Shown: positions 4,071-61,726 of the stretch, in pieces | Position numbering within the stretch: position 1 is the first letter of the stretch | Layout of the letters: every line of letters starts with the position of its first letter | Source of the DNA: Mya arenaria | Taxonomy: Eukaryota > Mollusca > Bivalvia > Myida > Myidae | DNA: 64,000 bases | Assembly: GCF_026914265.1 (NCBI RefSeq) | Contig: NC_069125.1 | Span: forward strand, 65,337,479 to 65,401,478 | Reading direction: 5' to 3' | Notes under the pieces: model-generated | The model's input: the letters and a program-made list of their open reading frames with translations, nothing else | What the model was told of the DNA's origin: nothing | The model's database searches: none | Position numbers and translations under genes: made by a program

Positions 4071-4267
4071 TTTAGAGTAAGTATATAAAGGACTAACCAA
4101 ATTCATTAACAGATTTTAAGACTACAATGAATATGGGTCACCCCTGGTCTAAAACTAAGTCAAATATTGAGACAAAATTTTGCATCTAATTCCTTTCACA
4201 AATTCGTCAAGTGTTCATTCAATCTTCAAAAATCTGTCGGAATATTTCTCAGCATGATATTGTGAAA

Positions 4268-25000: not shown

Positions 25001-28000
25001 GGCTCACCAAAACATATTATTCTAGTTGTTGAAAAGTTTATTTCAAATAGAAAGCAAAGTAACAACAACTTGATTTCCTTATTTTAATCTGTACTCAACC
25101 TATAGTGCAGGGCCTCACTTCTCGAAACTTCCAAAGTCCCTAATAACAGGATAAATCTTAGCTCACTACTTTTGTTTTGGTATATTTTGCGTAATACATG
25201 CTTCTGTTAGAATATTTGGACTTAAAATACCAATTACCGTTGATAATGATAATTACAATAAAGCATTTTTTATTAATCCAAATCAGATTTAAGAATTATT
25301 TTGGCAAATTAAAATAAGGAATATAAGTCTGTCAAGCATAAGAACATATGAGATGTTGAAATAAGACCTATACAAAAGATGTTCACTTATCAGACAAGTG
25401 AAAAAGGATTTTGAATTTTAACTTTGTATTGCATCCTACATTTTAGAAGTTTGCATGTGAGAGATATGTTTTCATTACTACATTTACCATCCTCGGTGAC
25501 TTTGAGGCCTTTCTGCACATGGTAGAACTTCTGGATGTTAAATTTGTCTAGGTTAGTTGGGTCCTGCAATAAGAACATGGGCCTCAACATTTCAGCAGAA
25601 ATAACTAGAGCTGTCACAGGAGTGACAACTACCCCAGCAAGCCAGTCAAAGATATGTGTCACATGTTATATACTTAAATTCTGACAGAGAGAAAGTCAAT
25701 TATAATTATGTCCAATCTTTTTTTGGGTGAAAGTCCCAGAGTTTTGACATATTCTTCTGGCTTTCCGCAAATGTATGCTCAAAATTCATATGTTAATAAT
25801 AAATTATCATTGTTAAGTTATTTTGATTAGGCCTAAAAAAAAAAAATGTCCGTTTCGGGTAACCCAACCCTACCTTTAAAAATGCGCCGACCCTAACTAT
25901 TTTTTTCCGTTTCTGAGCAAAAAAATATTCGTTAGCGAGTAGAGAGTAACGAAGGGCGGATAAATGCAGATTTTAATCAGAATTATTGTTTATATGATAA
26001 AACAAAGTCAGGCAATGACAGTAATGTAGGAAAGACTGCCATTTACAAGAAAACACTCTGAACTTACGACAGATATTGAAAAAAAAAACTAAATAAAAAA
26101 ATCCCTACCTACCCTACCTAAAAATTTTGGGAAGGTTACCCTAAACAAACAATTTTTTTTTTTGGCCTTTCACTATAAAAGGACCATATTTTCTATCATT
26201 TATTAATGTGTTAATTAAGACATTTAAAGCTGGTCTAATGTGCCACCTGTATTGTAATAAGGTCTTTCCTGGTGAATGGTTCATCTGTAAGTAGATCCCT
26301 CCAGAAGTTTGTTTTGACATTTAGTCTCTCCACAGCCTGAAGGGAATGGGCAAAACTTGTTGTAAGAATCATCATAGATTTTTAAGTTTAATGATTTATT
26401 TTACAGTGATTGCCAAACATATTGTATTGTATACAGCAAAAGACTACTCAGTGTGTGTATACCATGTGATAAATTGCGTCATAAATGCTACGTTGTGGTG
26501 TAGTAAAAATAAAGTTATATTTGAATCAAGTCTTCATTTTAAGCAAATATTGCCTTCCCGCGTAGCATATATGATGTAATTTATCATGTGGTATACACAC
26601 ACTGCTACTGCATTATGTGGAATACATGCATTTTCTTTAAGTGAATTTTTTTGTGCATACCGATAGATTTTTTTGTTTTAGTTTTCTAACATAATTACTT
26701 TTCCTCCTTCCATGATAATACCATGTATCATTGTGGCCATGTTAATATTATATAATATGATACATTTTATGTTTTTGTCAAGAAACTGGTTACACCATGT
26801 TAACAACAATAAGCACTTCTGTATGTCTATCTATCTATGTTCCAGCAGCACTTGTTAAACACCCTTCAATCTTAAACCAAACGGCAAAAGTTAAAATAGA
26901 TATTGAACCATTTGTTTCTTGACATCTACAACATAAAAAAACACTTCAATGAAATCTGTATGTTTTTTACTAGTTTTCATATATCATTTTATACTTAGCT
27001 TAACATATGATATTTTAAGAATTAATCCATAAAATATTCTAAGCAAATTATTCTGACCTCATTAGCGAAGACATTTCCAGTTTGCCTTACTGCAACAATG
27101 TGAGTGTTCTCATTGAAGACCTTGAATGTCACTGGACAATGATACTTGCCTGAAGTAAAGTTCAACTTTATGACCACACATATTTGCATCCACATGTATT
27201 TTCTTATCTACCGGTATGTAGGAAGTCAAATTTAACTCCTTGTATATTTGGTATATTTTGTACATATTTGTAATAATCATAACAATAACTTATTTAAATA
27301 TAATCAAAATGAATACTTTGTTTTAAAACCTTACCAACTTGAAAAAAAAAGAAAATTTCTGTAGAATGAGTGCCAAAAAAAATGACGGCATGTCTATTCA
27401 GTATTAACTAAAAATATTGGCATTGCCTTTGAAATCTAAAACATCTTTTTGTGTTGAACTGACCATCAGCGTTTTTGTGGAAGTTGAGTCTGACCAGTTC
27501 CTTGGCACTGAGTTTGTCTCCTGTGACAGGGTTAATACCATACTTCTTCAAGAAGGGGACTATGCTCCTAAAATGTACATACATAAATCTAAGACTTGCT
27601 TTACAGAAAAATATGATAGGTCATGTATGAATGCAAAATGCAGATTTTATGCTTTAAGAGTACAAGTTTACAATATCATTGAATTCGCATGGCCCACATG
27701 GATATAATTGTTCAAAATAAAAGTAAATGAGCATCAAAGTCTGTAAAATAAATATTTTAAGAATTAATTAACTAGAGAACAGCATGCTATAATTCATTTA
27801 ATAATTTTGACATACATAAGATCATAAATTACTCCATCTTTTGTGCACAGAGGATTTTCAAATGGCTGCATGGACAATCTGAAATAAATAAGGCTTGACA
27901 GTAAAAAAAAAAGCTTTATCTCATGACATGAACTTGACTGTATCAGTATATATTTACAAATGTACATATACATGAAGTAAAATGTTAACAATAACTATGA

Positions 28001-31000
28001 GCTACTTTCTTTAACTAATAACAGGGGTGCTAACAGCTAATAATTGTCATTCCTGAAAAATACCCAAGGATCTGTTTGAGTAAACAGAACAGAACAGAAC
28101 AGACAGTTTATTCGACTTATACAAGAGTACATCGTCGTAAGTATGAGTATGAGTATGAGGGTGATGGGTGTAATGCCTTAAGCAAAGTATAGTGGCTTAG
28201 CGCTCTTTCATATTCTTTTACCAAAGTCACTTATATTTATTTCAAGGTACTTCCTAAAAACAATCTTTACAACTGTCCAATTGTCTGCATTAAAAGATCT
28301 CAATCCTGATTCAAGGATTAATTCTGAACTTACGAACCCCTGTCAAATATCAGCGAACATCCAATTGAATATTTTTCGATTTTGTTAGAAATGTTGAAAC
28401 ATACATGTAGACAGAGGAAACTATTTATATGCATAATACAAAAAAGTTCAAAAGTACATATATTCAGCTTACGTGCAGCATGAGAATGGTAGACGGCGGA
28501 AGTCTTGATTCTTCACCTGTTTTCCTTTGTACCCGCCAAACTGGTTCTTCCATTCTGTAGTTGTCAGATATCTGTAAGTGTATAGTAAGACTTCTTAAAT
28601 TTATGACAAGTGTTTTCTTTATATTACCAAATAAAGAAATAAATTACTGGTCGTATTTAGCCACTTGAACACTTCCTTTTAACCTTTTGACTTGAAGCTA
28701 AGCATTAGACAAAACAGATAATTTTGTTCAAAAGTATGTTAAAAAACATCAGGTAAAATGATGGCACTACATAAACATTTGCGTGTTTACATTTTAAGTT
28801 GCAATAACGACAAATTCTGCCAAATTTTCAAACAGAGTTTAAATGACCTAGAGTACCTTGAGGACCTGAGTTTGATTCCAAAATGAAATGTCAGCTTTAT
28901 TTAAAACAAGAGGCACATCAGTGCCTGTGCTCCACTGGCCAAAAGGTTCAAGCAAAGACCACCTAACGAACATTTTCGTCAAGTTTCATAGAAATACAAT
29001 CATCAATTTTTGAGGAGAAGTTATTTAAAAAATTTTTTTACTTTAATAGCTCTGGCTGCCATGTTGTGCAGTGGACCGAAATGATTTGGGCAATTTGAGT
29101 AAAGGAGCACCAAACAAACATTTCTGTCAAGTTTTATCGAAAAAAGGTCATCGGTTTCGACGACAAGTCGTATAAAGTTTTTTTTTATTTTTTAGCTCTG
29201 GCAGCCATGGTGAGCAGTGGACTGGAACCATTTAACAAATTTTGGTTAATGACCACCCAAGGAACATTTCTGTCAAGTTTCATCAAAATCTGATCATCGG
29301 TTAACATTTAATCTGAATAGATTATGAAGCAAATATCTAACCTGAACAAGAACTGACGAGATAGAATCGACTTGGTGTTTCACTTACACTTTTCGGCCAT
29401 TTAAGTTACTAAAAATAGCTGTTTCATAAACTTTCAGAATGTCACTTAAACGAAAATTAATGTTCAGTCTATATATACTTTCCTATGTATAAATGTAAGG
29501 TTTTTAAATTGATCTTTTTGTGAGAACTTTATGCTTATATGTTTACTCATAAATTATTATTGTTTAAAAATTATTTAAAGATGCTATAGGTGAAAAATTA
29601 AGACATTATTTTTTTTTCTATTAAAGGGAGGTAATTCAGTAGTAAAATGTAATCAAAGCTATTAAAGGATGGCATTTCTTTTCTAACCATGTTGATATTA
29701 TTACAGTCTATTCAAGCAAGATGCCTTTTGTTTTTACATAGTACCCATAGGTTCTGAAAAACAAGGAGCACTATTCCCAACAGAAGGATGTCACTCCCTA
29801 TCACTGCATGAGCATCATAATAAAAAAATGTTTACTCAAACTGCAAGCTGCTCAATTGAAATAGGTATTTACCTCAAGCATACAGTTTTATAATGTGCCA
29901 AAATAGTCGGACTACTAGATTGTCATTCGGACTAGTAAAATATGCCATTATGCTAGTCCAACTGGCTAGTAGGTTAAAATGTTTTTTCGTGAAGACTGCG
30001 GACGAGAAGTCCTTAAAGGTTTTTCTATTTTTAACTCTCGCAGCCATGTTGTGCAGCGGACCGGAACCATTTGGGCAATTTTGGTTAAAGGGCATCCCGA
30101 TGAACATTTATGTAAAGTTTCATCAAAATCTGATAATCGGTTTCTGAGAAGATGTAGTTTAACGTTTTTTTCTATTCTTAGCTCTGGTGCCCATGTTGTG
30201 CAGCAGACCAGAACTGTTTGGGCTATTTTGGTTAAGGACTACCCAAGTAACATTTCTGTCAAGTTTCATTGCAATACGATCATCGGTTTCTGAGGAGAAG
30301 TCGTTTAAAGGTTTTTCTATTTTTACCTCTGGGGGCCATCTTGTGCAGTGGACCGAAACCATTGAAGCAAATTTGATAAAGGACCATCCAAGGAACATTT
30401 CTGTTAAGTTTCATTAAAATCTGATCATCGGTTTCTGAGAAGATGTTCTTTAAAGGTTTTTCTATTTTTTTGCCCTGGCAGCCATGTTGTGCAGCGGACC
30501 GGAACCATTTGAGCAATTTTGGTTAAGGACCACCCAAGGAACAATTCTGTCAAGTTTCATCAAAATCTGCCTATCCGTTTCAGAGGAGATGTCGTTTAAA
30601 GATTTTGCTATTTTTAGCTGTGGCGGCCATATTGTGCAATGGACCAGAACCATTTGAGCAATTTTAATAAAGGACCACCCAAGGAACATTACTGTCAAGT
30701 TTCATCAAAATCTGCCGAACCGTTTCAGAGGAGATGTCGTTTAAAGATTTTGCTATTTTTAGCTCTGGCGGCCATATTGTGCAATGGACCGGAACCATTT
30801 GAGCAATTTTGGTAAAGGACCACCAAAGGAACATTCCTGTGAAGTTTTGTCAAAATCCGCTTATCAGTTTCAGAGGAGATGTCGTTTAAAGTAAAAGTTT
30901 ACGCACGCACGCACGCACGCACTCACGACGGACAATCTGTGACGACATAAGCTCCATGGCCTTCGGCCAGTGGAGCTAAAAACTTTACTTTTTTGTGACG

Positions 31001-31326
31001 ATTTTTATCACTATAAGTTTTCATATGATATATTTTTCAAAATTTTCAGATATATCTTATATTGACTTCCCATAACTTGCATCCAAATTAATGGCCCTTC
31101 AATGATATTAAAGATGAACAGGCTTTATGATTATGAAAGGAAATATTAAGAATATTGCATCCGAATAATATATCCGACAAAACTGCATGTGTACGTGTAC
31201 TAATTTTTAAACCTCTTAGAATATAAGCAGAACTTATTTGCGAATACATCATTAGATGAATAATAAATATTCTTTAATAAGTATTTAAAACTTACAATTT
31301 ATCTTTTTGATGTTGCTTTTTACCCA
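19026..31326 (-). CDS. PPIL2: Peptidyl-prolyl isomerase-like 2 (U-box cyclophilin), complete
   Basis: Nineteen exons with matching phases give 521 codons (human about 520): 31326-31295, 28571-28473, 27878-27816, 27567-27464, 27149-27058, 26336-26247, 25563-25488, 24980-24880, 24456-24412, 24164-24089, 23295-23189, 22818-22729, 22307-22274, 21971-21854, 21582-21526, 20810-20741, 20350-20288, 19662-19517, 19128-19026. The protein starts [11 protein letters not shown] as in human PPIL2. A U-box lies at about residues 35-110 ('[16 protein letters not shown]'), a linker contains '[17 protein letters not shown]', and the cyclophilin domain (about 277-430) keeps '[15 protein letters not shown]', 'SQFFITF' and 'LDGKH'. 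A Lys/Glu-rich tail has '[10 protein letters not shown]' and ends DFSAW. His385 stands where cyclophilin A has the cyclosporin-contact Trp. The family acts in the nucleus, in spliceosomes and as a U-box ubiquitin ligase. No break is seen. Confidence 0.97.
19885..20314 (-). repeat. ~34-bp tandem repeat grown from a PPIL2 exon end plus its splice donor
   Basis: On the minus strand the last 24 coding bases of the seventeenth PPIL2 exon (encoding PYEEVDEE, 20311-20288) and the donor GTATGTTTAC form a 34-base unit. About twelve more copies follow inside the intron, down to about 19885. Many keep the exon-like part ('ccatatgaggaggt' or variants) and a 'gtatgtt' or 'gtatatt' donor-like string. Divergence rises away from the exon, and the array looks old. 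If a downstream copy served as donor, the frame would continue as EEVCLPI and meet a TGA, truncating the protein before its C-terminal tail. Confidence 0.85.
25604..25650 (+). repeat. Fragment of an interspersed element (terminal stem-loop)
   Basis: 'ACTAGAGC' is followed by a stem-loop TGTCAC-AGGA-GTGACA and 'ACTACCCC'. It resembles the start of other repeats in the window (28914, and the minus-strand copies starting at 15141 and 60208). It lies in a PPIL2 intron just outside the exon at 25488-25563. Confidence 0.45.
25829..26168. mobile_element. MITE-like element (~340 bp) in a PPIL2 intron
   Basis: The left end reads 'aggcctaaaaaaaaaaaa' then 'gtttcgggtaaccc'. The right end is its inverse: 'aggttaccctaaacaaac', then a T-run and 'ggcct'. 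The interior has no open frame. Inverted ends and small size fit a non-autonomous DNA transposon. The target duplication is not clear. Confidence 0.6.
28914..30979 (+). repeat. Interspersed element with hairpin ends carrying ~148-bp tandem units
   Basis: It starts 'AACAAG' plus a stem-loop AGGCAC-ATCA-GTGCCT and 'GTGCTCCACTGGCC' (28915-28943). It ends with arms 'AGCTCCATGGCC' and 'GGCCAGTGGAGCT' followed by AA (30950-30979). The interior holds two partial units (28960-29310), a non-repeated stretch (29310-29880) and about six tandem units of ~145-150 bases (29985-30890). Each unit has 'gccatgttgtgcagcggacc', 'gttaaggaccacccaaggaa' and 'gtcaagtttcatcaaaatct'. A short 'acgc' run lies at 30901-30921. 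It sits in the first PPIL2 intron. Short frames on both strands are repeat by-products. Confidence 0.75.
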
Positions 31327-31509
31327 TTTTGTTTATCCTTAGAGTATTTTTTTCAAAAGCAACTTTTACATCAAAATAATATTTCAACACCGACAGGTCT
31401 ATGAAATCGTTGAAATTGAAAAAGTCAACAATGAATATTTTTTTGTTATTTTTCCGTTTTAAGACATTTGTTTGCTTTGTTATGTAAAGGATTTGAAATA
31501 TAATATAAA
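31327..31509. promoter_or_regulatory. Presumed bidirectional promoter between PPIL2 and the RSKR-like kinase
   Basis: The two start codons face away from each other with 183 bases between them. Both first coding exons are supported by family matches, or by phase and splice sites, so both 5' UTRs and the core promoters must lie in this gap, or further 5' non-coding exons must exist. The gap is AT-rich with no obvious TATA box or CpG cluster. Confidence 0.6.
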
Positions 31510-34500
31510 ATGGGCAACACTAATCAAAAGTCACCAATACGGAAGACGCAGTCTGTCCCTGATACTCAGGTGAGGGTAATCTTTCATGAATGAAGAACAT
31601 TTGCTTGACAAACTTTTCTTTTTCAAATCGTGTAAAAACCTCACTCTGGCCCATCTTCACAGAAATGAGCTTACAAGTAGCTATGTGGAAGCATACGTCC
31701 AATGTGGTTTAAAACATAAAATTCACATCCTGCTGTTAATGGCAATGCTTCTGAAATTCTTGTAACGTCCGAGACCAAACAAGCTAACAGATTCCTACAG
31801 GGAAAAGCATGCTCGACTCTGAAAGGTTCTGCTGGTCTTTATATACAGTAAATTTTCAATCCACACAGAACCCAGGCTTTGCTAATTTGCCTATTACCAA
31901 CCAAGTTAACATACATACTATTAAGATACTTCCGTCTATAACAGAATGTTATACTATGAACACATATCTGCCGCCTACAGCGGAGCGTTACATTAATCCG
32001 CCGCCTTCAGCAGTCCGTTACATTTTTAAGGCCTCAACACAGTCGGTATTGGCTTGCTGGTTTAAGAGATCTGATGGCATAGTTGAAAAAACCTGGCTGG
32101 TATACATCAGCATGGAAGAAAGGCAGCAGGCACTTAATTGTGTTTCCTCTGGTGCTGATGATGACTTAACTTCTGGAAGCTTGGGGCTGGATGCTCGACT
32201 TGTACAAGCTACAATTAATGTGAAATTGATCCCAGTGTGGGGTTTCCGAACAGGAACTTCATATTTCAACAGGGCCTGACAAGAGCATGGTAGTACTGGG
32301 TCTCATTAATATGCAGGAAAGTCATGAAGTTCCTGCGCAGTAAGCTTAGGCAAATAAATTGCTGTCACAGAGATATGAGTATTCCAGGAGAGCTTTTCAA
32401 TTGATATGTACTCCCAAGATATCTGCCTCATTTAACTACCTGCAGTTCTTCATCATGGATAACATATGTTGTTATGATGGATGCTTGCTTCTTTGTGATG
32501 ACTTCACCTATGCTCGAGCCAGTTCTGCCCAAACTGTTTAATCCTATTTAGGTTTTCTTGAACCGCCAGTAAGTCCAAATTACTGTCATTAGAGCATTTC
32601 CTCCTGTACAAGAAGGTTTGGGGTTGCGTTTTGACTGGGAATCAAACAATAAAACTCAAATAGTCCTGAATGGCTTAATCTAGAAAGATAAAATGTTTGT
32701 GTCCCAATGATAGAAGATTTGATTGCAAAAGTCCAAACTAATAGTAAAAATATAGATATTCTGTTAATGATATTTTTATTACTTTAGGTCCTAGATGCAA
32801 ATGTTGATTTTTCGAGTTCCAAAGGAAAGTCTGGCAGTACTTGGCGCCTTTTCCGTGGAAAGTCAACAAATGCTATAGACAAGATGGATGCCAATGAAGT
32901 AGCCACAAAGAAGAAAACCCAGCCTCAGCTGGCAGTGCCCCTGGTTGAGGCATTGTTTCTTCCCGACTTTCCTGTGAAGAGTCAAGACACAGACTTTGAT
33001 GTAAGTTAACTATCAATTCATAACATAAATTTTGTATTGACTCTTTTTGTTTCTCATATAATTTATCATTAAAGGCATGCCGAAGAGAAAATAATGAATT
33101 CTTGGGTCATGTGTAACCAATTATATATTCTGTATGTATATAGCATAACTTATACTGTCTCGCTATGGAGCTAGGTTTATAGCGACGCGGTAGAGTGTCC
33201 GCTTGTAGAGCAAGAGGTCGTGGGTTCAAACCCCGACAGGTGCACACAGCAATTTGTGCAGTCTGTTGACACATATTTCTATTATGTGTATGTCTGTCAT
33301 TGTCTGACTTTGAAGATAAATACAGGCATTTTCAAGCTGCTTTAGCAGCCTAGATCTATTTGGTAAAGGAGTTGTTTGCTCTGTTTCAGATTGTTGACGT
33401 GATAGCCAAAGGTGCATATGGAAATGTGGTGAAGGTTCGCAAAGAAGATGACAAACTGTACTATGCAATGAAGGTCAACAGACATTTACAATGCATTTGT
33501 TATATTTCAACTTTAATTACTTCTGTGCAAATAATGACTAGAAAATATTATTGTAAAAGTATGGAAGCAACTTTGTTTATGTTCTGGATACAATGTTTTC
33601 TTAAGAAGTAACAATTGTTTTCAAAGTATTGTACTGGTATCTTAAAAAAAACTCTTACCTATTAAATCTAAAGATAATCACTTTCTTTTTCTAACATCTT
33701 AATCATTGTTTGCAAATAAAATTGAACTGAATACCAGGAGAGACTTGAAACTGTTTCACATGTAAGTTGTAAAGAAATTAATATAAAATGTAAAGAAATT
33801 AATATAAAATGTTACTTGTCTCTTATCAGTAAACTGCACAGTAATATTACTGTTAGAGATGAATTATGATTCACAATATGATGTGACCTTGTACAGTTAG
33901 TGAGATCCCACCATGTCAGTTTGAAAGTTTACAACATTTATTATGTTTCACTTATACTGTGTGCTAATGTTACTGAGATGCTGTTGTATGTGTTGTAAGG
34001 TGTTGGACAAGAAGCAGATTATCGTGGAGAGTGCCATACAGCAGTGTAAAGACGAGGCTGCCATACAGGTTACCAGTATAATTTATTTAAACATACACAT
34101 GTAAACAAATGCATGTTCACATATACATTTACTTATCCACAGGACAATTGTACATGTACCCCTTGTGTGTACTTACAGTATATTTTTGGTTTGTCAGTTT
34201 TTCAAAGAGTCAAGGAAATGTCAAAGCCTTAGTATAGTCGGCTACAGCTTCATGAAAAACCTTAACCGTGGCCATAACTCAAAAACTGTCAAAGGTAATC
34301 TAATGAAACTGGAATGCTTATGTACTATCATAAAATGGTCTTTGAATCTTGGATGTCAAGCATAAAAAAATATGTGTATACCAATGGGTTTAGAATTATA
34401 TGGGAACAACAAAATGTTGGTAATCAAAAGCTATTTTTATATTGATATGTTCAACGGCTTAAAGACTAGTATACGCAAAACTGGATGGAAAAATGTTTCT

Positions 34501-37500
34501 CTAATAGCTAATTATTTAAACTAACTTTAAGAATTACTATGTAGTTGAAAAATACACACATGTTACTGATATAACAAGAATCAGAATCTGTTTTGCCAAC
34601 AATAGACTTACGGGTCTGTGGCATAGCACGTACTGCAGCTGCAAGATTATATATGCTTTATATGAATGATTGAGCCAGAGGCTATATAACAGAATTATAA
34701 ACATACAATACATGTTTGTACATAAAAGTGCATTTTATGTTCTACAAATGTTTTTCATTCCAGATTTTATGTAATGATTCAATGAAATTCTTACTTTAAT
34801 CAATCAATCAATCTATCATTATCTTTATTTCCTCCATCACAGCTTTTGCATTCTTTTCATAAATTGTCAATGCACATTTCTGGTCCCATTTGAAGTTTAG
34901 TCAATATAGCTTTAATTCTTCTTTTTTCAGTCAATTTTGGGAGATCATCCATTTATCGTCAAGTGTCATGAGTACTGGCAATCACGTAAACATCTTTACA
35001 TAGGTAAGTTTCATACAGTGTAATGCAAAATGGATAATCTTCACATACATTTTTAAACTTACCAATGCGTCCATGGCACATTTATGTGTGTGGCATAGGT
35101 GTTTGGGAATATTTGCATCATACCATATTCTGCTTTTATTATGTACAAAATGTACAGTTTAGTTCTTATGTTTTAAACTACATTATAAAACAAACAAAAA
35201 CATGTACAAATTATCTGTTTCCAGTCCTGGACTATGTACCATACGGAGACATGTTCACTCTGTGGACGTTTCATGGTTTTTTCCCAGAGAAATTAGTGAA
35301 ACTCTATGTTGCAGAAATGGCAATGTCACTAGGTAAGTTATGTTCTAATTTGAAGCTTGTCTGTTTTTATGAAAAAACAATATAGAGGTATAAGCCCTGG
35401 CGTTGTTGTTAGTCCGGCAGCGGAAGTCGAGTACCTTGCATCGGAGTGTATAGAAAATGTTTTGGGGTTTTAAAATAGCTTTGACCCTCCAGTTAAGGAA
35501 TCCGTTTGATGGCCTCGCGCCATCCTTGGGGAAATCGAGATATTCAAGATGGCGTCCAAGATGGCCGCCAAATTTAATATAAATCACCAATTAATTCGTA
35601 ATTTTGTTTTGATGATTTAATTCCTGTGCAAAACTATACCATAAAGCATTTATATTGCAAACCGATCAATTCTAAAATATTTCATACCATGTTTAGGCCA
35701 TAATGGCGTCTAAAATGGCCGCCAAACTAAAATAATTGACATTTGAGTTAGATTTTGTTGCAAATACCATCAATTTTTATGCACATGCATCTCGTTTTAA
35801 CATAACAATGTATTATATATAGGTATCACAAATAGCATTATAAAGACACATATTAACCAAGATGGCGTCCAATATGGCCGCCCAAAAAGCATAAATTAAC
35901 ACAGACTAAATAAAACGGGCACAATTGTTTACAAATGTATAAAAACAATAGCATTTTTCTTTATTTAAAATTACACTGTAGTTTATGGTTTGTATTAATA
36001 GCTTTAGAACAATTACTACATCTGTTCTAACTTAAATAGAAAAGTTAGTTTGTTAACTCAAAGATTTATATATTCATTTTGTTTGCTTATTGTGGCAATT
36101 TTCTTATGCTTGACATTTACTAAATATTGAACATGACATATGCACATTGTTGCAACGACAGCAAGAGTGTTGCATTGAGTATTTGACTGACACAAACATT
36201 TTATCATTTTAAGCACATCATATGAGGCCACTGAAATCATATGAGGCCACTGAAAATTGTTTTGGTAATATTATTGGGACCAAAGATCGCATGTCCTTTT
36301 TTCCCAACCAGTTCAAACGGGTCCAGGTTTGGTTGGTCTGATTTAACTGCACAATTTCAAACACACGTTTGAAAATGTGCTCCCTTGATATTATCATTAA
36401 ATGCCTCTGTTGTTAGGGGTAGAGAAGCAAGCTTTGGTGCACACGATGTCGCTTTCCTAACCTTAGAACTTAATACCTTTTGTAGAACTTCTGACATGTC
36501 GTCGTCAACAACATCCATGTTGTAACATTGCGAAATGAAACGAGTTGATCCTCGGTTGACTGTCGAGTAGTCAGATGTTTCATCTCAAACACACATGAGT
36601 GATACTCGCTTTCAGTACCTACAATACTATGCCCTTACCTATGCCGTAGCAGAAAGTAGTAGTATCCGATCCTGATAGTGCATGTGCTGCAAGTTAATCT
36701 GGAACTATGCGTTTGTATTTGTTGACTGTGGCTGTTATATCTGTCAATAGTCTGTCTTTCACAGGTTATTCCGTAACTGTTCCAGGTAATGGTGAAGAAG
36801 AAGTACAAAGCATCGGTATCTTCTGAAAGTACTCAAATGCCTGCATCATTTGCCTTTACTATACTAACAATTTGATGGGCAACAATGTTGTCAGCTTCTT
36901 TATGTGTGTTGCGCATGTCATGACGCGTAATTATCACAGTTGGTGTAACTTCAATTGGTGAATCTTCATCTCCAATAACAATAAGCACGCACATGTCTAG
37001 GGAATGAAATGTTGCTACCGACATGATCTCTTTCTGAGGAGGAATTTGCATTGCAGTTGACAACTGATGTACGCGCTACGTATGTGATCTTCTGTTTTCC
37101 CTTGTTTCAGTTTCTGTGCTGTATTGCCTGTATCTGGCGAAGATAAGTAGCCGTCTATAATTATCGATGTTACTTGCTTTGTTGCAGAACGTGCTGACAC
37201 CTGAACTTGCAAATACTTTTTCAGCACATATTTGGATTTGGCAAGTCACATTCAAAACATCGCTGTTGGAACATGGGACAACTCATGCAACCTTTCACAT
37301 CAAAGTCATGTGAGCTCGCTTGAAGGCTGATCACTCTTGTGAAAATTAATTATGTCTTAAAGACCTTCGTATCACCAGTTTGTATACCCATTCGTGTTTC
37401 TGCTTGTGTTCGGGGCCCGTATTCACCTACGTTCTGAGTCTGAGTTAGAGACTCAGGCTCAGAAAAGCGAACATTTAATGTTGTTATAAAAATGCTATAA

Positions 37501-40500
37501 CATAAGAATATATTGTCAATAGTTATATTAGAGATATTTTCAAACATATAAGAATTCAGTTTTTTGAGCCTGAGTCTTAAACTCAGACTAAAGACGTTAG
37601 TGAATACGGCACCTGATCTTGCGACTTATCTTGACATTGAGACTCCCTGGCCAACCATTTTCAAATTCCTTCATTTGTTTGATTCCAATTTCAACATCTT
37701 GATCAACATTTACAGTTTCTTGTGCTATCTGACCTGTAACTAAGTTGATGATTTCATCAGGGTAATTCGACGGCTCCAATGGATTCATACAGTCATTTAT
37801 CGCTCCCTGCAGTGATCTATGATCGTTGCAGTCACTCAATATTCTTGCCTTCATTTCCTCTTTGGGTTTAGCATTAGATGGCTTAACTTGTTCACTATTT
37901 GCAAGGCTTGAGATATCTGCCTCCAACCTGCTACAAATGTGTAGACCAGGCGACCATATCTTGGGTGTGTCGGATTTTAATGTAATACCAATAATGCCTT
38001 CTTTTCCATACCAGTCTCAATGAACATATCACTCGAAATGCTGTTCCAAAAGCTTAAGATTTGACGCATCACATGCTTCCATTTCCGAAATATTTCCCTG
38101 CATGAACCGGGCATTTACTCCTTAGATAGTAAATAGGAGCGGCAATACCAAACGTAATGCACGTGTCTTGCTGCAAAGAAGTAGGGGATCGTAGATTTAA
38201 TAGCTACCAAATGAAAACCCTAATCAGTTTCTTTTTCAGCTATGATGTGAAGCATCATGATCAGCAATGACTTTATAACACAGTTATCCATAGCTTTCAT
38301 GTTCTGCTTCTAGATTACAGCTCTGAAAGAATTTTATTGAGGTCACCCATGCTGTCTATAATACCACTTACAAATGTTTCTGTCAGTAGTTCTTACGAAG
38401 TAAATTGGAATAAAAAAAAAATGCCATTGTTTTTTATACATATATGTAAACGGTTGTGCTCGTTTCATTTAGTCTGTGTTAATTAATGTTTATTTTGGCG
38501 GCCATATTGGACGCCATCTTGGTTAATATGTAATAATATAATGTCATTTGTGATACCTATATTGTAATGTAAAAACGAGATACATGTGTATAACAATTGA
38601 TGGTATTTGAAACAAAACCTAACTCAATTGTCAATTTTCTTTGTTTTGGCGGCCATTTTGGATGCCATGATGGCTTAATTATGATATGAAATATTTTAGA
38701 ATGGATCTGTTTGCAATAAAAATACATAATGGTATAATTTTGAACAGGAATTAATGCATTTATACACAATTACTAGTCAATTGTTGATTTTGATAAAATT
38801 TGGCGGCCATCTTGGAAGCCATCTTGAAGGGTGGTGTGAGGCCATCAAACGGATTCCTTAACTAGGGGGTCTTAACTACTTAAAAAGCTAAAAACATTTT
38901 CTATACACTCCGATGCAAGGTTCAGCCAAAATATCCCATTTGGCTGCCGGACTATGTTGTTTTCATTTGCATTGATGTTGTTGTGCAAATACTTGCTAAT
39001 AAGTTAGAAGGAAAGGTTCTGCATATTCTGAAGCTTGATACACATGTTACCACTGAGAATATGCTTATGTATATGTAACCCATAACTCATGCTATAGTAA
39101 TAGTCAAGTTATGTCCCTTACTGACTGAATAACCACAACAACAGATGAATGTTTGCATCTGCTTGCTGTGCTATTGGTCGTTTATATATATATGTATATT
39201 TTAATACATTATCAGCACGTATTAAGTATTGAGGCTTTATTACCAGTAGGTCTTTTATTGAGAAAAAAGAATTATGGTTAAAAAATTCAAATAAGGTGAC
39301 TCAAATTGATATTAACGGTACAAACTGATAGATGTATTATTGTCATTATTCAAAATGTTTAATAGCATTTGCTTTGATTAACATTTAACCTTAATTGTTA
39401 AAAAAAAAATTTTGTTAGTAACTTTTGCTAGCAACAACTTGTAACAAAACATTGTCAGTGAACAGCTGTATTTGATTTACTTCTGTATTTCAGATTATCT
39501 TCATAAGTCGGGGGTTATTTACAGAGACATGAAGGTAATTTGAATCTTGGATTGGTGATAGAATTTCTGTTGTATATAAATGCTGTTATAGGGATGAAGT
39601 TTAATACAGGACTGTAAAGATGAAACCTGTCACACTGGTGCACTACTAGTTGGCAAACAGTCAATACTCTGTTTAGAATTTGCAAGTGGAAGTTAGAACT
39701 TTCTGCTATTACCTTTGGTACTTTTTAGCCGTGTAAGATCAATTATCTCGAAAACAAAGAATGTTTCCATTATCATTAATGTTCAACAATTCTGACCATG
39801 TATGAAATGATTTGAAACATGCCAACTCCACAAAATTGTATTTAGACAATGATTTTTTTAGAGATTATAGAAAATGTATAAATGTAACATTGCCACCAGG
39901 TTTTGATAACCAAATTTTCCAACCTTTCACCTTTTGAAGTTTTTGTACTTGCAAGCACTCAATTTAGAAAGTTTTAGCTCATTTTAGGTGAGTTATATAT
40001 TTACAAACATCCTTTAAAAGAATCCCTGAATCCCAGGTAACACAGAACAAAGACTAAGCCTGACTGGTACTGGAACAGTTTATAACCATTACCAGTATGA
40101 AAGTCTGTTTTAAGCAGATGATAGTTTTATATTTTCGGTAGGGAATTATATGTGTCACCACTATCATGGGCACCACCAGAAAGTCTGCACCTTCACACTT
40201 GATTATAATAGTTACAGCAATAATGTCATGGACAATTTATGATATCTAGTAACATTGCTTCAGTCATTATTCATGACTCTTCAATTGTCAAAATTTGACC
40301 AAACATCGTTTTCTGTGTCTTTATTCAAATCTATTTGTATGAGTAAGATATAGAATTTGATTCTCTCTATCTTCAACAGCTCTTATCCAAATCTTTATAG
40401 AACTTGATAATAATGTTCATGGACATAGTTTCACAAACCTTTTTTGATAACGAATGAGACAACGATTTTATTGCTTGAGTTATCACCTCCAGTCAATATT

Positions 40501-43500
40501 TTACCAATAGTGCAATACTCACGATTTATAAGACTTGAATTGCCTTTTTTTCCACTTCACCTGGTGACACTCTTGTTTATTGATATACTGTATTTTGTCA
40601 TTTGGTAATGTTATAGCTCTTTTGCAGATGGAGAATCTCCTGTTTGATGCAGAAGGTATGAGCTTCATGATTTATATTTGTCTGGTTTTGTTTTGGTTGT
40701 AAAAAATTAAATCTTCATTTAATCCCTCTCAAATCAAATTAAAGTGAGACTCTTGATAGTTAACATTTTCTGGCATTTTTTAAAGATTTTGTTGATGAAA
40801 TAATCATGTTGATATGCTATTGAACAAAAACATATTTATTTTTTTAACCATAATAAGTTTTCAAATATATACCATAATTTTTATAAAAAACATCATCAGA
40901 GGTGGCAATTTTTATTTATGTTTTTCTTAAGGCCATCTACAGTTGACAGACTTTGGCCTTGCAAAATGGCTTGCTCGAGGTGAAAAGACAAGGACAGTCT
41001 GTGGAACACTGCAGTACATGGGTAAGTTACCCTTTCTCCTACACTGCAGTACATGGGTTAGTTGCCCTCTCTGCTCCTACACTACAATACATGGGTCAGA
41101 TGCCCTCTCTGCTCCTACACTGCAGCAGTAGGTGGGTCAGTTGCCCTCTCTGCTCCTACACTGCAGTACATGGGTACGTTGCCCTCTCTGCTCCTACACT
41201 GCAGTACATGGGCAAGTTGCTCTCTCTGCTCCTACACTGCATTACCTGGGTCAGTTGCCCTCTCTGCTCCTACACTGCAGCAGTACGTGGGTCAGTTGCC
41301 CCCTCTGCTCCTACACTGCAGTACGTGGGCAAGTTGCCCTCTCTGCTCCTACACTGCAGTACGTGGGCAAGTTGCCCTCTCTGCTCCTACACTGCAGTAC
41401 GTGGGCAAGTTGCCCTCTGCTCCTACACTGCAGTACGTGGGCAAGTGACCCTTTCTGCTCCTACACTGCAGTACGTGGGCAAGTTGCCCTCTCTGCTCCT
41501 ACACTGCAGTACATGGGCAAGTTGCCCTCTCTGCTCCTACACTGCAGTACGTGGGCAAGTTGCCCTCTCTGCTCCTACAAGTTGCCCTCTCTGCTCCTAC
41601 ACTGCAGTAAGTGGGCAAGTTGCCCTCTCTGCTCCTACACTGCAGTAAGTGGGGAAGTTGCCCTCTCTGCTCCTACACTGCAGTATGTGGGTTAGTTGCC
41701 CTCTCTGCTCTTACACTGCAGTACGTGGGTAAGTTGCCCTCTCTGCTCCTACACTGCAGTACATGGGCAAGTTGCCCTTTCTGTGCCTTGATAAATCATA
41801 TCCAATACTTAACACCATTATCGGATTGGATAGCCACATTGTAAATGTAATGCTTACTCAGTGAATTGTAATATAATTGCTAATAAATGATTTTCAAAAT
41901 ACTTTTCCTGTTTTGAAATCATTTTAGGATGATTAGATATTGGTATTTCATTGAGACCATTGGGTTCTTAAAAAGGACACCTGTACTGATTTCTTCATTG
42001 GAAACAAATATGAAGTGATATATTCCAGCTGCAGACCGTCTTTTTAGTAAAACTAGAATGAGATTTTAATACAAAACCTGAGCAGAATTGAACATGTTTG
42101 TTTTAGCACCAGAAGTATTAGCAGTTTACCCATACGGACACACTGCAGACTGGTGGTCACTTGGAATCCTGGTGTATGCCATGCTTGTTGGAAAGGTCAG
42201 CTCCTTTGTAGTGTTTATTGCTTGTTTGGATAAGATCTTTATTGTAAGGACAAAACATCCAAGTTCAGGTTTGTCCATCATGTTATATGTATATTTTTAG
42301 CTACCATTATTATTAGATAAGAATAATAAAACTCAAACAGGGTTCCAAGGGTCAGGGAAAAGTCAGGAAGTTTTGAATTCTGTCAGAGAAATTTGGGAAT
42401 TGGGCAAATCTCAGGGAATAGTCAGGGAATTAGGAACCTGAGATCAAGCGCCTTGGAATAAATTTGTGAAAGCAGAAAAAGGCAATAAGGCTAAGGCAGT
42501 TTCTTACTTTCTTTATAATTAAACACTGAAGGTTTGGTCAGTTGTGCAGTATGTACCAAAAGATAAAGTGAACATTATTCCAGTATTTTGTTGATTGTAG
42601 ACTGTTTATATATATTTGTTTTAATAAGCATATTCCAAAAATTCTACATTTTTTCTAGTACCCTGTTGATGGTGCCGCGGACCATATTGAGATGGCCCAG
42701 CGTGTGATAGACTGTGATTACTTATGTCCCGACATTGTCTCAGATGCAGCTCAGGATATTGTCAACAAGGTAGCTACTGTGGTCATTTACTCAGCTTTTT
42801 GTTTATCTCCAATATTTCTTTTTAGAGTACAAAGCTTCTTTATCTTCAATAATCAGTTGAGAAAACGCCAGATTGGGAAACAAAGGGATCAACCTTCATT
42901 ATTTTCCAATCTTGAAACTTTTGTCAATTTATATCCCGGTTCGGAAACAAAAAGTCCATTTTTTCCTATCATTTTTCTCTGCATCAGGTCATTAAGGATA
43001 TTAGAAACTAAAAAATGAATAAAATATCATACCATTCAGATTTATTTTGATTTCCCCATTCTTAAGATATCCAAATAAATCAAGATGTTTTCCAATCTGG
43101 AAACAAGACCAACAAGGCAGTGAGAACAGCTATTCAGGAAATGTAGCAGTTTTGTAGAGCTAGTATTACGGTACTATTGAAATAAAATCACAACAAAAGC
43201 ATATGTTTGATCTCCAATATCTCAAAAATGAGGATATTAAAGAAAAGTTTGAACAGTAGGATTTCAGATCTATTGTTCTTCTTAATCTAGTACACAACCA
43301 AGATTGTGTAAGGCAAATATCCTTATGCACAGAACATTGTAACTAAGGTATATGAAACATGGGTGTCTTTTTTCATGACCGGGCATAAATTGATAGAAGA
43401 TTCCCTTTTCAAGTACTTTGGTACTGCCCTGGTTTGCTGAAAGTGATCTGGTGTCACAAGGCAGAGTGTATCAGTAAAGTACAACTTTATAATGCTAATT

Positions 43501-44647
43501 ATTGGCTTTGTAGGCAAGCTGTGTATGATTTATAATTGGGTTGTCTGCTCTGCTGCGGATGTGTTTCTAACTAATAGCTCACATGAGATCTTGGTGAGCT
43601 ATTAAACTGGGCCTTGTCTGTCGTAAAATATATCGTAGTGACATTAAACCAAGAAGCAGATAGGATCTTTTTTTTCCACCCCTTGTACTGTACTAGCATT
43701 AACTAAACTAGCCTGTATATTGGTGTAATTATTCCCCTCCTACAGTTGCTGATGAAGAGCCCTGCAAAGAGACTGGTTGACCTGTATTCCTTGCAGAATA
43801 TGACCCTCTTTAGCCGCCTAAACTTCACTGATGTCATAGAGAGAAAGGTATGGGTCTTCAAAACCTCCATGAAATTGTGGACGCTATTCAGAAACATACT
43901 TGTTTAATTTATATTCTTTATTTGGGACAGAATATAAATTCTATGAGAAAGTCATTGATTAATAAAACATAAATTATATTCCCCCAATATCTCAAGTCCC
44001 CCACCTACAATAACTTATATTTCCCATATAACCTAGCTTATTTCGGCAAAGTGATATTAGAGTAGGATTAAGAACAGTTTAGTCCTCCTCTAGGTAGATT
44101 TTAATCTTTACGGGAGTAGGTGTTTATAGCAGATAATTATATCAGCAACTTAATGCAAATGACATTATACAAATTGGTATCCAATTTCTTAATAGCTATG
44201 ATGTATAAACATGTATTATATACACTCCAGATAAGTCCCCGGCAGCTGGTGGGACAAGATTTCTTCCCCATGACTGGCACCAGCTACAGTTTTGCACCTG
44301 GCTCTACACATTCAAATGACAGCTTTCAAGATGTAAGACATAGTCTATACTAGCACCTGTTGTGTACAATTGTTATGCAGCTTTATGCTCAGGAGTAGTA
44401 AAATAAAAGGCTTTAAAAGTTTAAGTGGAATTCTTTCATTCCAAAGTAATGCTTCTGCAATAGTGCTTCTGCAATGTCTTTGAAAGTACATGTTAATTGT
44501 AGACATTCTGATACATTTTGTTTTAGAAAACTTTTTAATAAGGTGTGCTTTCTGTTAAACCATATTGTCATCATAATGTTTTGTTTTCTACAGTTTGACT
44601 GTGTATGGAACCTTCCAAATGGAGCAGACAGACCTGTGTATGTATGA
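31510..44647 (+). CDS. RSKR: AGC-type protein kinase of the RSKR/SgK494 family, complete
   Basis: Fourteen exons with matching phases give 407 codons (human RSKR about 410): 31510-31569, 32788-33000, 33390-33473, 34000-34068, 34931-35003, 35225-35332, 39494-39534, 40628-40655, 40932-41021, 42107-42195, 42659-42769, 43746-43847, 44231-44332, 44594-44647. The kinase domain starts near residue 92, with glycine loop KGAYGNV (98-104), beta-3 Lys119 and helix-C Glu139. The catalytic loop is IYRDMKMEN (Asp214) with Tyr for the His of HRD, as usual in AGC kinases. DFG is 232-234, and the activation loop has Thr247 in [12 protein letters not shown]. 'FLPDFP' before the domain and 'DFDC' near the C-terminus match human RSKR, a poorly studied S6-kinase relative. 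The protein starts MGN, so N-myristoylation is possible but the context is not ideal. All catalytic residues are present. The sixth intron holds the 35410-38954 element, and the ninth a splice-site minisatellite. Confidence 0.95.
31780..32640. other. Repeat-like sequence with open frames in the first kinase intron
   Basis: A 156-codon plus frame (31809-32279) and an 83-codon minus frame (32018-32269) overlap. The stretch is richer in G+C than the intron around it. Neither translation matches a family I can name. A decayed mobile element is the likeliest reading, and a host gene is not supported. Confidence 0.3.
33178..33245 (+). repeat. tRNA-like SINE head
   Basis: It has an A-box-like 'tagcgacgcggtagagtg' and a B-box 'gggttcaaacccc' at tRNA spacing, but no pairing acceptor stem. 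It sits in a kinase intron. A tRNA-derived SINE (body up to about 33350) or tRNA pseudogene fits better than a working tRNA. Confidence 0.55.
36750..37930 (-). pseudogene. Decayed protein-coding remnant of the inverted-repeat element
   Basis: Minus-strand pieces with protein-like content include 37597-37926 (109 codons, containing '[20 protein letters not shown]'), 37015-37227 ('[12 protein letters not shown]', 'SIIIDGYL') and 36833-37063 ('[20 protein letters not shown]'), followed by 'SEDTDA' in the same direction. From memory these phrases belong to an uncharacterised protein family common in bivalves, corals and other invertebrates, with motifs like HDIRxTHEEAD and SDDTDVFVLL. The copy is broken in several places and interrupted by the nested MITE. 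Its function is unknown. Confidence 0.55.
37414..37613. mobile_element. Nested MITE (~200 bp)
   Basis: The left arm 'gcccgtattcacctacgttc' continues with 'gagactcaggctcagaaa'. The right arm is the inverse: 'tttgagcctgagtcttaaac' ... 'gttagtgaatacggc'. The centre is AT-rich. It lies inside the coding remnant of the larger element, so it inserted later. No protein. Confidence 0.75.
41006..41790 (+). repeat. 38-bp tandem repeat (~20 copies) grown from a kinase exon end plus its splice donor
   Basis: The ninth kinase exon ends 'ctgcagtacatgg' (41021) before GTAAGT. That junction and the next bases form a 38-base unit, 'ctgcagtac(a/g)tggg.aagtt' then 'gccctctctgctcctaca', repeated about 20 times into the intron. 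Each unit offers a donor-like site (gtaagt, gtcagt, gtacgt, gttagt or gcaagt) followed by a pyrimidine tract and a CAG. Copies are very similar, so the expansion is recent. Extending the exon into the array leads to a stop at about 41131. The long frames across the array (up to 231 codons) exist only because the unit has no stop in any phase. Confidence 0.95.
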
Positions 44648-44839: not shown

Positions 44840-45235
44840 AGATGTCACATCTGCTGTGTTATGTACCAGTCTACCAGAACGGTTCTCTGTGTTATGTACC
44901 AGTCAACCATGTACTAATCTGCCAGACTGGTTCTCTGTGTTATGTTCCAGTCTACCATGTACCAGTCTACCAGACTGCGTCTCTGTTTTGTACCAGTCTA
45001 CCATGTACCAGTCTACCAGAATGGTTCTTTGTGTTATGTACCAGTTAACCATGTTCTTATCTACCAGACTGGTTCTCTGTGTTATGTAACAATCTACTAT
45101 GTACCAGTCTACCAGACTGGTTCTCTGTATTGTACCAGTCTATCATAAGCCAGTTAACCAGACTAGTTCTCTGTGTTGTAAACCAGTCTACCTGACTGGA
45201 TCTATGTATTGTGAACCAGATTAGTTCTAGAAGAG
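44840..45235 (+). repeat. 48-bp minisatellite in the presumed kinase 3' UTR
   Basis: The unit is 'ggttctctgtgttatgtacc' followed by 'agt.accatgtaccagtct' and 'accagact', about eight copies with losses and substitutions. It starts about 190 bases after the kinase stop codon. Frames of 68-80 codons across it are incidental. Confidence 0.85.
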
Positions 45236-53149: not shown

Positions 53150-56105
53150 ACCCTTAAATCATTCACTTCACGTCTAAGATCATTCACTTCACAACTTAGA
53201 TCATTCACTACACGTCTAAGAGCATTCACTTCACGTCTAAGAGCATTCACTTCACGTCTTATCTAGCATTCACTTCACGTCTTAGATAATTCACTTCACG
53301 ACTAAGAGCATTCACTTCACGTCTTAGAGCATTCACTTCACGTCTAAGATAATTCATTTCACGTCTAAGAGCATTCACTTCACGTCTAAGAGCATTCACT
53401 TCACGACTAAGATCATTCACTTCACGTCTAAGAACATTCATTTCACGCCTAAGAGCATTCACTTCATGTCTAAGATCATTCACTTCGCGTCTAAGATCAT
53501 TCACTTCACGTCTAAGAGCATTCACTTCACTTCTAAGAGCATTCACTTCACGACTAAGATAATTCACTTCACGACTAAGATCATTCACTTCACGACTAAG
53601 ATCATTCACTTCACGACTAAGATCATTCACTTCACGACTAAGATCATTCACTTCACGACTAAGATCATTCACTTCGCGACTAAGAGCATTCACTTCACGT
53701 TTAAGAGCATTCACTTTACGTCTAAGAGCATTCACTTCACGTCTTAGATCATTCACTTCCGACTTAGATCATTCACTTCACGTCTTAAATCATTCACTTC
53801 ACGTCTAAGATCATTCACTTCACGTCTTAGATCATTCACTTCACGACTAAGATCATTCACTTAACGTATTAGATCATTCACTACACGACTAAGATCATTC
53901 ACTTCACAACTAAGATCATTCACTTCACGTCTTAGAGCATTCTTTTTACGTCTAAGAGAATTCACTTCACGTCTTAGATCATTCACTTCACGTCTAAGAG
54001 CATTTACTTCACGTCTTAGAATATTCACTTCACGTCTAAGTTCATTCACTTCACGTCTAAGAGAATTCACTTCACGTCTAAGAGCATTCACTTCACATCT
54101 AAGATCATTCACTTCACGTCTTAGATCATTCACTTCACGACTAAGATCATTCACTTCACGTCTAAGATCATTCACTACACGACTAAGATCATTCATTTCA
54201 CCATTTATATCATTCACTTCACGTCTAAGAGTATTCATTTCACGTCTAAGAGCATTCACTTCACGTCTAAGAGCATTCACTTCACGTCTAAGATCATTCA
54301 CTACACGACTAAGATCATTCACTTCAAAAGCATTTACTTCACGCCTAAGAACATTCTCTTAACGCCTTAGAGCGTTCACTTCACAACTAAGAACATTCAC
54401 TTTACGTCTAGAAACATTCACTTCACGACTAAGAGCATTCACTTCACGTCAAAGAGCATTCACTTCACGTCTAAGAGAATTTACTTCACGCCTAAGAACA
54501 TTCTATTCAAGCCTAAGAGCGTTCATTTCACAACTAAGAACATTCACTTCACGTCTAGAAACATTCACTTCACGACTAAGAACATTCACTTCACGTCTAA
54601 GAGCATTCACTTCACGTCAAAGAACATTTACTTCACGCCTAAAAACATTCTCTTCACGCCAAAGAGCGTTCACTTCACAACTAAGAACATTCACTTCAAG
54701 TCTAGAAACATTCACTTCCCGATTAAGAGCATTCACTTCACGTCTAACAGCATTCACTTCACGACTTAGATAATTTACTTCACGTCTAAGATCATTCACT
54801 TCACGTCTAAGAGCATTCACTTCACGACTGAGATCATTTACTTCACGACCAAGATTATTCACTTCACGTCTAAGATAATTCACTTCACGTCTAAGAGCAT
54901 TCACTTCACGACTAAGAGCATTCACTTCACTTCTAAGAGCATTCACTTCACGACTAAGATAATTCACTTCACGACTAAGATCATTCACTTCACGACTAAG
55001 AGAATTCACTTCACGTTTAAGAGCATTCACTACACGACTAAGATCATTCACTTCACAACTAAGATCATTCACTTCACGTCTAAGATCATTCATATCACGT
55101 CTTAGAGCATTCACTTCACGTCTAAGATCATTTACTAAACGATTAAGATCATTCACTTCACGTATTAGAGCATTCATTTCACGTCTTAGAGCATTCACTT
55201 CACGTCTAAGAGCATTCACTTCACGTCTAAGAGCATTCACTTCACGTCTAAGAGCATTTACTTCAAGCCTAAGAACATTCTCTTCACGCCTAAGAGCGTT
55301 CACTTCCCAACTAAGAACATTCACTTTACGTCTAGAAACATTCACTTCACGACTAAGAGCATTCACTTCACGTCTAAGAGCATTCACTTCACGTGTAAGA
55401 GAATTTACTTCACGCCTAAGAACATTCTATTCACGCCTAAGAGCGTTCACTTCACAACTAAGAATATTCACTTCACGTCTAGAAACATTCACTTCACGAC
55501 TAAGATCATTCACTTCTTTACGTCTAAGATCATTTACTTTACAACTAAGAGCATTCACTTCACCACTTAGAGCATTCACTTCACGACTAAGATCATTCAC
55601 TGCTTCACGTCTAAGCTCATTTACTTCACAACTAAGAGCATTCACTTCACGTCGTCTAAGATCATTTAATTCACGACTAAGATAATTCATTTCACGTCTA
55701 AGACCATTCACTTCACAACTTAAATCATTCACTTCACGACTTAGATAATTCATTTCACGTCTTAGAGCATTCACTTCACGACTAAGATCATTTATTTCAC
55801 GTCTAAGAGCATTCACTTAACAACTAAGATAATTCATTTCACGTCTAAGAGCATTCACTTCACGACTAAGATAATTCATTTCACGTCTAAGAGCATTCAT
55901 TTCACAACTTAAATCATTCACTTCACGACTTAGATAATTCATTTCACGTCTAAGAGCATTCACTTCACGACTAAGATCATTCATTTCACGTCTAAGAGCA
56001 TTCACTTCACGACTAAGATCATTCATTTCACGTCTAAGAGCATTCGCTTTACAATTAAGATCATTCACTTCACGTCTTAGAGCATTCACTTTACGATTAA
56101 TATCG
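53150..56105 (-). repeat. 21-bp tandem array (~140 copies) that reads as a coiled-coil heptad
   Basis: The plus-strand unit is 'agatcattcacttcacgtct' plus 'a', exactly 21 bases. On the minus strand each unit encodes seven residues, typically (E/K)(V/M)N(A/D)L(R/S)R. Val/Met and Leu then recur at the a and d positions of a coiled coil. Frames of 256, 165, 153, 145 and 129 codons cover most of the array, separated by a handful of stops or phase shifts. Longer sub-repeats (with 'acattctcttcacgcc' and 'cgtctagaaacattcac' near 54350, 54640, 55280 and 55480) show duplication in blocks of several units. Confidence 0.9.
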
Positions 56106-61526: not shown

Positions 61527-61726
61527 ATGGGAAAAGATTTCGACTAGGTTTTACTGGAAAGGATGTTTCGAAGATGTACACACGTTTATACAGAACTGCG
61601 ACAACTGTCAAAGAAAGGTGAACCTGAAGAAAGCAAAGAAGCCACTGCGACCTATCACAGTTCCCGCCGAGGCTTTCAAGCAAGTGGGCATGGACCTTAT
61701 AGGTCCTCTAGAAACCTCTTATCAGG
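61527..61726 (+). CDS. Integrase-domain protein (GIN1/KRBA2-like), second part
   Basis: After a 'tttgtttcag' acceptor the frame shows the second half of an HHCC zinc finger ('FYWKGCFEDV', 'CDNCQRK') and the first strand of the DDE integrase core ('GMDLIGPLETSY', with the first catalytic Asp). It ends at GTAAGT. The rest of the core is not seen before the window ends. A 1.4-kb inverted-repeat element begins 81 bases later. The gene either continues outside the window or was cut. Confidence 0.6.

Follow-up and report, generated by a model that had tools for sequence, protein, structure and literature searches.

In the bivalve Mya arenaria, an exon–intron junction of a protein kinase gene has been copied in tandem into the adjoining intron, and a second array seeded by a junction lies in the neighbouring gene PPIL2. 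Both were found in a stretch of 64,000 nucleotides (contig NC_069125.1, positions 65,337,479 to 65,401,478, forward strand; hereafter the window, with a G+C content of 0.349, lower than usual in lancelets and typical of bivalves), to which all coordinates below refer. We consider it probable that the two arrays are minisatellites of the rarely described type known in lancelets as "mirages", neutral or almost so in both origin and maintenance; at most slight mis-splicing, ending in premature stops, is their most likely effect.

The kinase junction and its copies

The features of the kinase gene that concern us here are the following (a slash marks an exon boundary here and below):

32788–44647, plus strand: kinase gene, 13 exons placed, 387 codons and a stop codon; the 5′ end lies beyond the placed exons
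40932–41021, plus strand: exon 8 of the 13 placed, source of the repeat; it ends with the first base of an Ala codon and was placed by the open joined frame, PF00069 and the alignment with RSK1
41022–41027, plus strand: native 5′ splice site GTAAGT (unit 1), from which the frame continues into the exon at 42107; duplex with U1 at −10.3 kcal/mol
41006–41784, plus strand: tandem array seeded by the exon–intron junction, with 20 units, each about 38 bp long
41117–41157, plus strand: unit 4, with an extra CAG, a TAG stop that is in frame for any longer extension of the exon, and a new strong donor, TAG/GTGGGT, which stands three and six bases 3′ of two acceptor-like CAGs
41713–41750, plus strand: unit 19, the only copy with GTAAGT, its U1 energy equal to that of the native site
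42107–42195, plus strand: following exon, whose acceptor has the lowest score of the 11 scored

The first 11 placed exons of the kinase gene join into an open frame of 336 residues, and two further 3′ exons, placed on the basis of an open frame and splice signals without a database match, lead to the stop codon that ends at 44647. The protein matched the protein kinase domain of Pfam (PF00069, 1.5e-61), and its best match in the PDB was RSK1 (5.5e-56); judging from these matches, we class it as an RSK-like AGC kinase with a domain nearest the S6-kinase family. The narrower label RSKR (SGK494), the name used in the first reading, is putative. The exon counted as the ninth of this gene in a first-pass annotation of the window was placed as the eighth, and would be the ninth if one more exon lies upstream. 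In a collection of genome contigs that does not include animals, the kinase protein found 52 loci, all bacterial, at 27–44% identity, and the kinase junction had no exact match; in a viral contig collection (animals not included), neither a locus for the protein nor an exact match to the array unit was found.

The end of exon 8 codes for the conserved CGTLQYM/APE, and cgtlqymapev is aligned with CGTVEYMAPEV of RSK1. Since the exon codes for kinase-conserved residues, it is the source of the repeat and not a captured repeat, which bears out the origin from a 5′ splice site that had been proposed. Moreover, with the exon end at 41021 and the next exon start at 42107, both as first annotated, the joined frame is open across the placed exons. 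Constrained by the kinase motif and by the in-frame continuation at 42107, the end of exon 8 fixes the native donor at 41021 and the direction of copying from exon to array.

The roughly 20 tandem units of 38 bp reported initially were recovered as 20 units with a consensus period of 38 bp, of which unit 1 is the native junction itself (35 bp) and the remaining 19 are copies, extending from it into the intron only. Unit 1 consists of 16 exon bases, ACACTGCAGTACATGG, and 19 intron bases, GTAAGTTACCCTTTCTCCT; the exon share had been put at 13 bases per unit. The array occupies 763 bp of a host intron of 1085 bp. The intron holds five exact copies of the exon-derived 16-mer, which does not recur anywhere else on the two strands of the window, and a match of 22/24 to the junction begins 19 bases into the intron, a level that 0 of 60 shuffles reached; the copying of the junction is not a matter of chance. 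As the first reading had it, GT is joined at the donor position by many GC forms: the dinucleotide is GT in 9 of the 20 units (1, 2, 3, 4, 5, 7, 8, 18 and 19), GC in 10 (6, 9–16 and 20) and GG in one (17), and the full GTAAGT is retained in units 1 and 19 only. CTGCAG is present in 18 of the 20, being missing from units 3 and 7. An additional CAG is found in units 4 and 8, unit 11 is short by 2 bp, a 22-bp partial copy directly follows unit 15, and five units (9, 10, 11, 13 and 15) are identical across the compared columns. The array does not continue the coding sequence, as the kinase frame ends at the TAG in unit 4.

The PPIL2 array, and the origin and turnover of both

The density of donor-like sites on the minus strand pointed out a second array of the same kind (called at 19908–20318 by Tandem Repeats Finder, TRF), with these features:

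19517–31327, minus strand: PPIL2 gene, 17 exons placed; one exon between the 8th and 9th was probably missed, and the 3′ end lies beyond the placed exons
20288–20350, minus strand: PPIL2 exon 16 of the 17 placed, source of the second array; matches human PPIL2
19887–20313, minus strand: the other array grown from a junction; counting the native unit, it has 13 units of about 34 bp, and its divergence exceeds that of the kinase array

The PPIL2 exons were placed with a PPIL2 query; joined, they give 470 residues, of which 1–469 match residues 1–487 of the 520-residue chain t of 7abi (E 1.8e-194). Unit lengths in the array range from 24 to 34, most units consist of the exon end and a GTATGTT-like stretch, and some, though not all, of the 13 units still have GT at the donor position. 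TRF matches are at 66% here and at 82% in the kinase array. The PPIL2 array is independent of the kinase array, having a different unit, on the opposite strand, in a neighbouring gene, and the process thus recurs in this genome. In both genes the native boundary is kept, the joined frames are open and the proteins have matches in the PDB.

How often junctions seed arrays was assessed by comparing the 24 bases of each junction with up to 1500 adjoining intron bases, single-base shuffles serving as the control. In the kinase and PPIL2 genes together the search covered 28 donors and as many acceptors, and in a Deltex-like gene of the window three of each. Tandem copies of the junction (at least 20/24) were found at 2 of the 31 donors, both at 22/24, and at none of the 31 acceptors searched. 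Single weak matches at the acceptor of kinase exon 10 (17/24) and at the second donor of the Deltex-like gene (15/24), each reached by 0 of 60 shuffles, were left out of the array count; about one match of this quality is to be expected among 62 junctions. Within the spans of the kinase and PPIL2 genes, three arrays have five or more copies and a period of 20 or longer; two of them start at donors. When founders are placed randomly in the two spans, the probability of at least two at donors is 0.0022 for three arrays and 0.018 if all eight TRF arrays in both spans are counted, while the corresponding values for any junction are 0.0085 and 0.066. This enrichment of donors among array seeds was tested post hoc and we treat it as a lead only. 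It would fit a view in which donors are preferred minisatellite seeds in this lineage through some donor-linked mutation, such as transcription-coupled template switching, and the arrays, varying in length, then serve as decoys for U1 and U2AF and reduce productive splicing of their host genes; we regard that view as quite improbable.

For the neutral origin that we favour, a short tandem duplication would have copied the exon end, the 5′ splice site and the first 20 or so bases of the intron into the intron; the duplicated segment may later have been multiplied by slippage or by unequal exchange. The most upstream junction would stay intact and be the one used, which would be why the kinase gene keeps working. 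The hexamer TCTGTG stands in the exon, immediately before the unit, and again at the end of the array, a possible founder microhomology; by eye, the kinase units lack the junction that it predicts, and we note this as a lead.

Turnover is visible within the kinase array: the mean difference is 0.046 among units 9–17, which are homogenised, versus 0.134 among units 1–8, and at the edge, units 19 and 20 differ less than the average unit does. The homogenisation of units 9–17 is ordinary repeat turnover. The indels, the partial copy and the five identical units described above could also come from the assembly, with the copy number inflated or the units scrambled, and a lancelet mirage was apparently misassembled in a genome draft (PMC3087553). 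Nevertheless, many units have private changes and the PPIL2 array is diverged, so neither array is simple stutter, and we consider such an artefact highly unlikely.

No selection on the donor copies, nor on a hairpin predicted over them, was shown. The donor core of the kinase units (6 of 38 positions) holds 6 of the 21 distinct changes, which is not significant (p 0.10), and a scan along the unit positions revealed no significant concentration (p 0.11–0.39). Selective disarming of the donor copies was considered and not accepted on these values (core p 0.10, scan p 0.39 and 0.11). In the PPIL2 array the conservation of the donor hexamer places it 16th among 29. Each kinase unit can fold into GGGCA-AGU-UGCCC or a variant of it over the donor, as predicted from the folding of five units and two native-site stretches. 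Covariation in this hairpin (T-A or C-G at +2/+8) was rejected, since no pair had changed on both sides and there was no excess over shuffles. Compared with shuffles, the native unit folds with a z of −0.13 and four copies with z from −1.4 to −1.9; the whole array reaches −5.5 as RNA and −6.3 as DNA, values that in our view the repetition of a mildly structured unit has inflated. No known RNA family was found at gathering score in the window.

Splicing potential of the copies

The donor and acceptor scores, the branch-point calls and the outcomes of copy use given below are in silico predictions. By U1 energy, the native site and unit 19 stand at −10.3 and the other 18 kinase units at −5.1 to −6.4; that is, 18 of the 19 copies are predicted to pair with U1 more weakly than the native site. 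Splicing from any of the 19 copied donors would bring a premature stop and leave a kinase that lacks APE and the C-lobe, in keeping with the initial claim that a wrong donor choice would destroy the kinase. The array had also been suggested as a splice-site buffer, a length-variable regulator or a source of tiny exons, and we found no evidence for any of the three; 17 of 17 single-unit microexons shift the frame and end in a premature stop. In PPIL2, the nine copied or new donors examined all stop at codon 428.

Several observations weigh against arrays that are neutral and almost silent in splicing. The U1 energies of 8 of the 11 scored real donors of the kinase gene (−4.1 to −6.6) are in the same range as those of the copies, so weak copies are not thereby unused. 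The donor of unit 4, whose last exon-like base is 41131, is the best-scoring one of the region, at 9.3 versus 8.9 for the native site, with U1 energies of −9.8 and −10.3, respectively. Three PPIL2 copies (donors 20097, 20030 and 19929) score 8.9, 9.3 and 9.9 between them versus 8.9 for the native donor, and the notion that the native site is the strongest therefore fails in that gene. On the acceptor side, 17 CTGCAG sites of the kinase array score 6.9–8.6 versus 1.5 for the native acceptor, and six further acceptor-like sites score 2.4–5.3; the native acceptor is so weak that outscoring it is little distinction, as that strand of the window has 17.4 sites per kb that equal or exceed it. Five of the 11 real acceptors likewise lack a yUnAy branch-point motif. 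Finally, 11 of the 21 distinct changes fall at donor positions −6 to +6 (p 0.038), an interval picked after looking at the data.

Each unit had been credited with both splice signals. This stands as far as the CTGCAG sites outscore the native acceptor; the yUnAy motif was present in the usual range at 0 of the 23 acceptor-like sites of the array, versus 6 of the 11 real acceptors. The acceptor scores would suit a splicing decoy, in which non-productive binding of U1 and U2AF slows removal of the intron and the length of the array tunes the output. Donor-like sites as strong as the weakest real donor are also dense, at 42.4 per kb in the kinase array versus 6.0 on the same strand of the window; a 21-bp control array at 53158–56095 reaches 32.7 on its minus strand. 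At the strength of the median real donor, the densities are 3.9 per kb in the kinase array, 9.7 in the PPIL2 array (minus strand), 0 in the control array and about 1 in the window. Furthermore, every mis-splice tested gives a poison form, and there are precedents: decoy exons whose 5′ splice sites are weak favour the retention of introns in OGT and other genes, the OGT decoy exon containing a premature stop (PMC12017769), and intron retention can result from a cryptic donor (PMC8706089). We nonetheless consider a decoy function unlikely, given that the array acceptor-like sites have no yUnAy motif, that the donor and acceptor parts show no sign of conservation beyond the rest of the unit, and that the predicted hairpin is unsupported.

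The native strength of GTAAGT in unit 19 and the strong new donor in unit 4 would also agree with an array that supplies alternative donors truly used, giving transcripts of variable length in the manner of the human gene IFI6. The premature stop that follows each of the copied donors argues against this, as does the nature of the IFI6 forms, described as variant-encoded isoforms and thus unlike the kinase outcome; we hold it to be very unlikely. The arrays of the two neighbouring genes, one partly homogenised and the other decayed, would offer a system for asking by what means the spliceosome selects the first among many near-identical donors, a choice that belongs to the old question of 5′ splice-site selection.

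Elsewhere in the window, the control array at 53158–56095 has about 140 copies and reads, on the minus strand, as open heptads of seven residues (REVNALR-like, coiled-coil-like), with open reading frames of up to 269 aa; the plus strand likewise has long open frames, and there are many overlapping Pfam matches, mostly to coiled-coil families. A 48-bp array of seven copies (44861–45192) begins 214 bp past the kinase stop codon. Two further arrays, at 4261–6040 (43 bp × 41) and 9802–10910 (66 bp × 17), have few or no donor-like sites on both strands. The Deltex-like E3 ligase exons lie at 12707–13930 on the plus strand, with a RING and a Deltex C-terminal domain and DTX1 as the best PDB match. 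A weak match to an integrase zinc-binding domain at 61528–61614 (PF17921, 9.2e-06) is perhaps a retroelement remnant.

Comparison with known systems

The minisatellite of human IFI6 (G1P3, 6-16) has a 12-bp unit near the end of an exon, and the kinase units, unlike it, also carry a pyrimidine tract and a CAG. It is reported to provide multiple splice donors, with downstream units serving as donors (Turri, 1995; PMC4526556), and to yield variants that each encode an isoform. The kinase gene differs in this respect: no coding isoform is predicted from the copied donors, all of which stop early. Decoy exons such as those of OGT, SF3B1 and ARGLU1 are likewise weak intronic pairs of splice sites that are rarely spliced in (PMC12017769); they are single, whereas the kinase case is a tandem array with strong pyrimidine/AG tracts and no yUnAy motif. 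The Rogers model, in which introns are gained by tandem duplication of AG/GT segments (PMC3087553; see also PMC4974935), shares with our arrays a tandem duplication that brings new splice signals; in the kinase gene, by contrast, the intron was pre-existing and no new intron was seen. Human genes, too, have internal tandem repeats that change exon–intron structure (PMC2812944).

The closest counterparts are the tandem repeats that span junctions in lancelets, the mirages, which are found at 5′ or 3′ boundaries and reported to leave regular splicing undisturbed (PMC3087553, PMC3902484); instability of their length is also described (PMC3087553). Among the matches listed (the best 25 of 368), there was no mirage outside lancelets. 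If mirages do occur outside them, their spread would be wider than these papers say, and junction duplication would be a more general source of cryptic sites, perhaps also of new exons or introns. As the marks of a mirage we took a unit that spans the boundary, a boundary left intact, AG/GT kept in many units though not in every one, a homogenised interior that leaves out the edge units, length polymorphism that may be somatic too, and regular splicing; the kinase and PPIL2 genes have the boundary-spanning unit, the intact gene and AG/GT in part of the units. The globin mirages have longer units (150–160 bp), and lancelet mirages occur at either boundary, while both of our arrays are at donors. 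The units of 38 and 34 bp fall within the range of 10–72 bp given for the lancelet Adh3 mirage and, as in Adh3, the globins BflGb6 and BflGb9, troponin C and PGBD5 of lancelets, they span a real exon–intron boundary.
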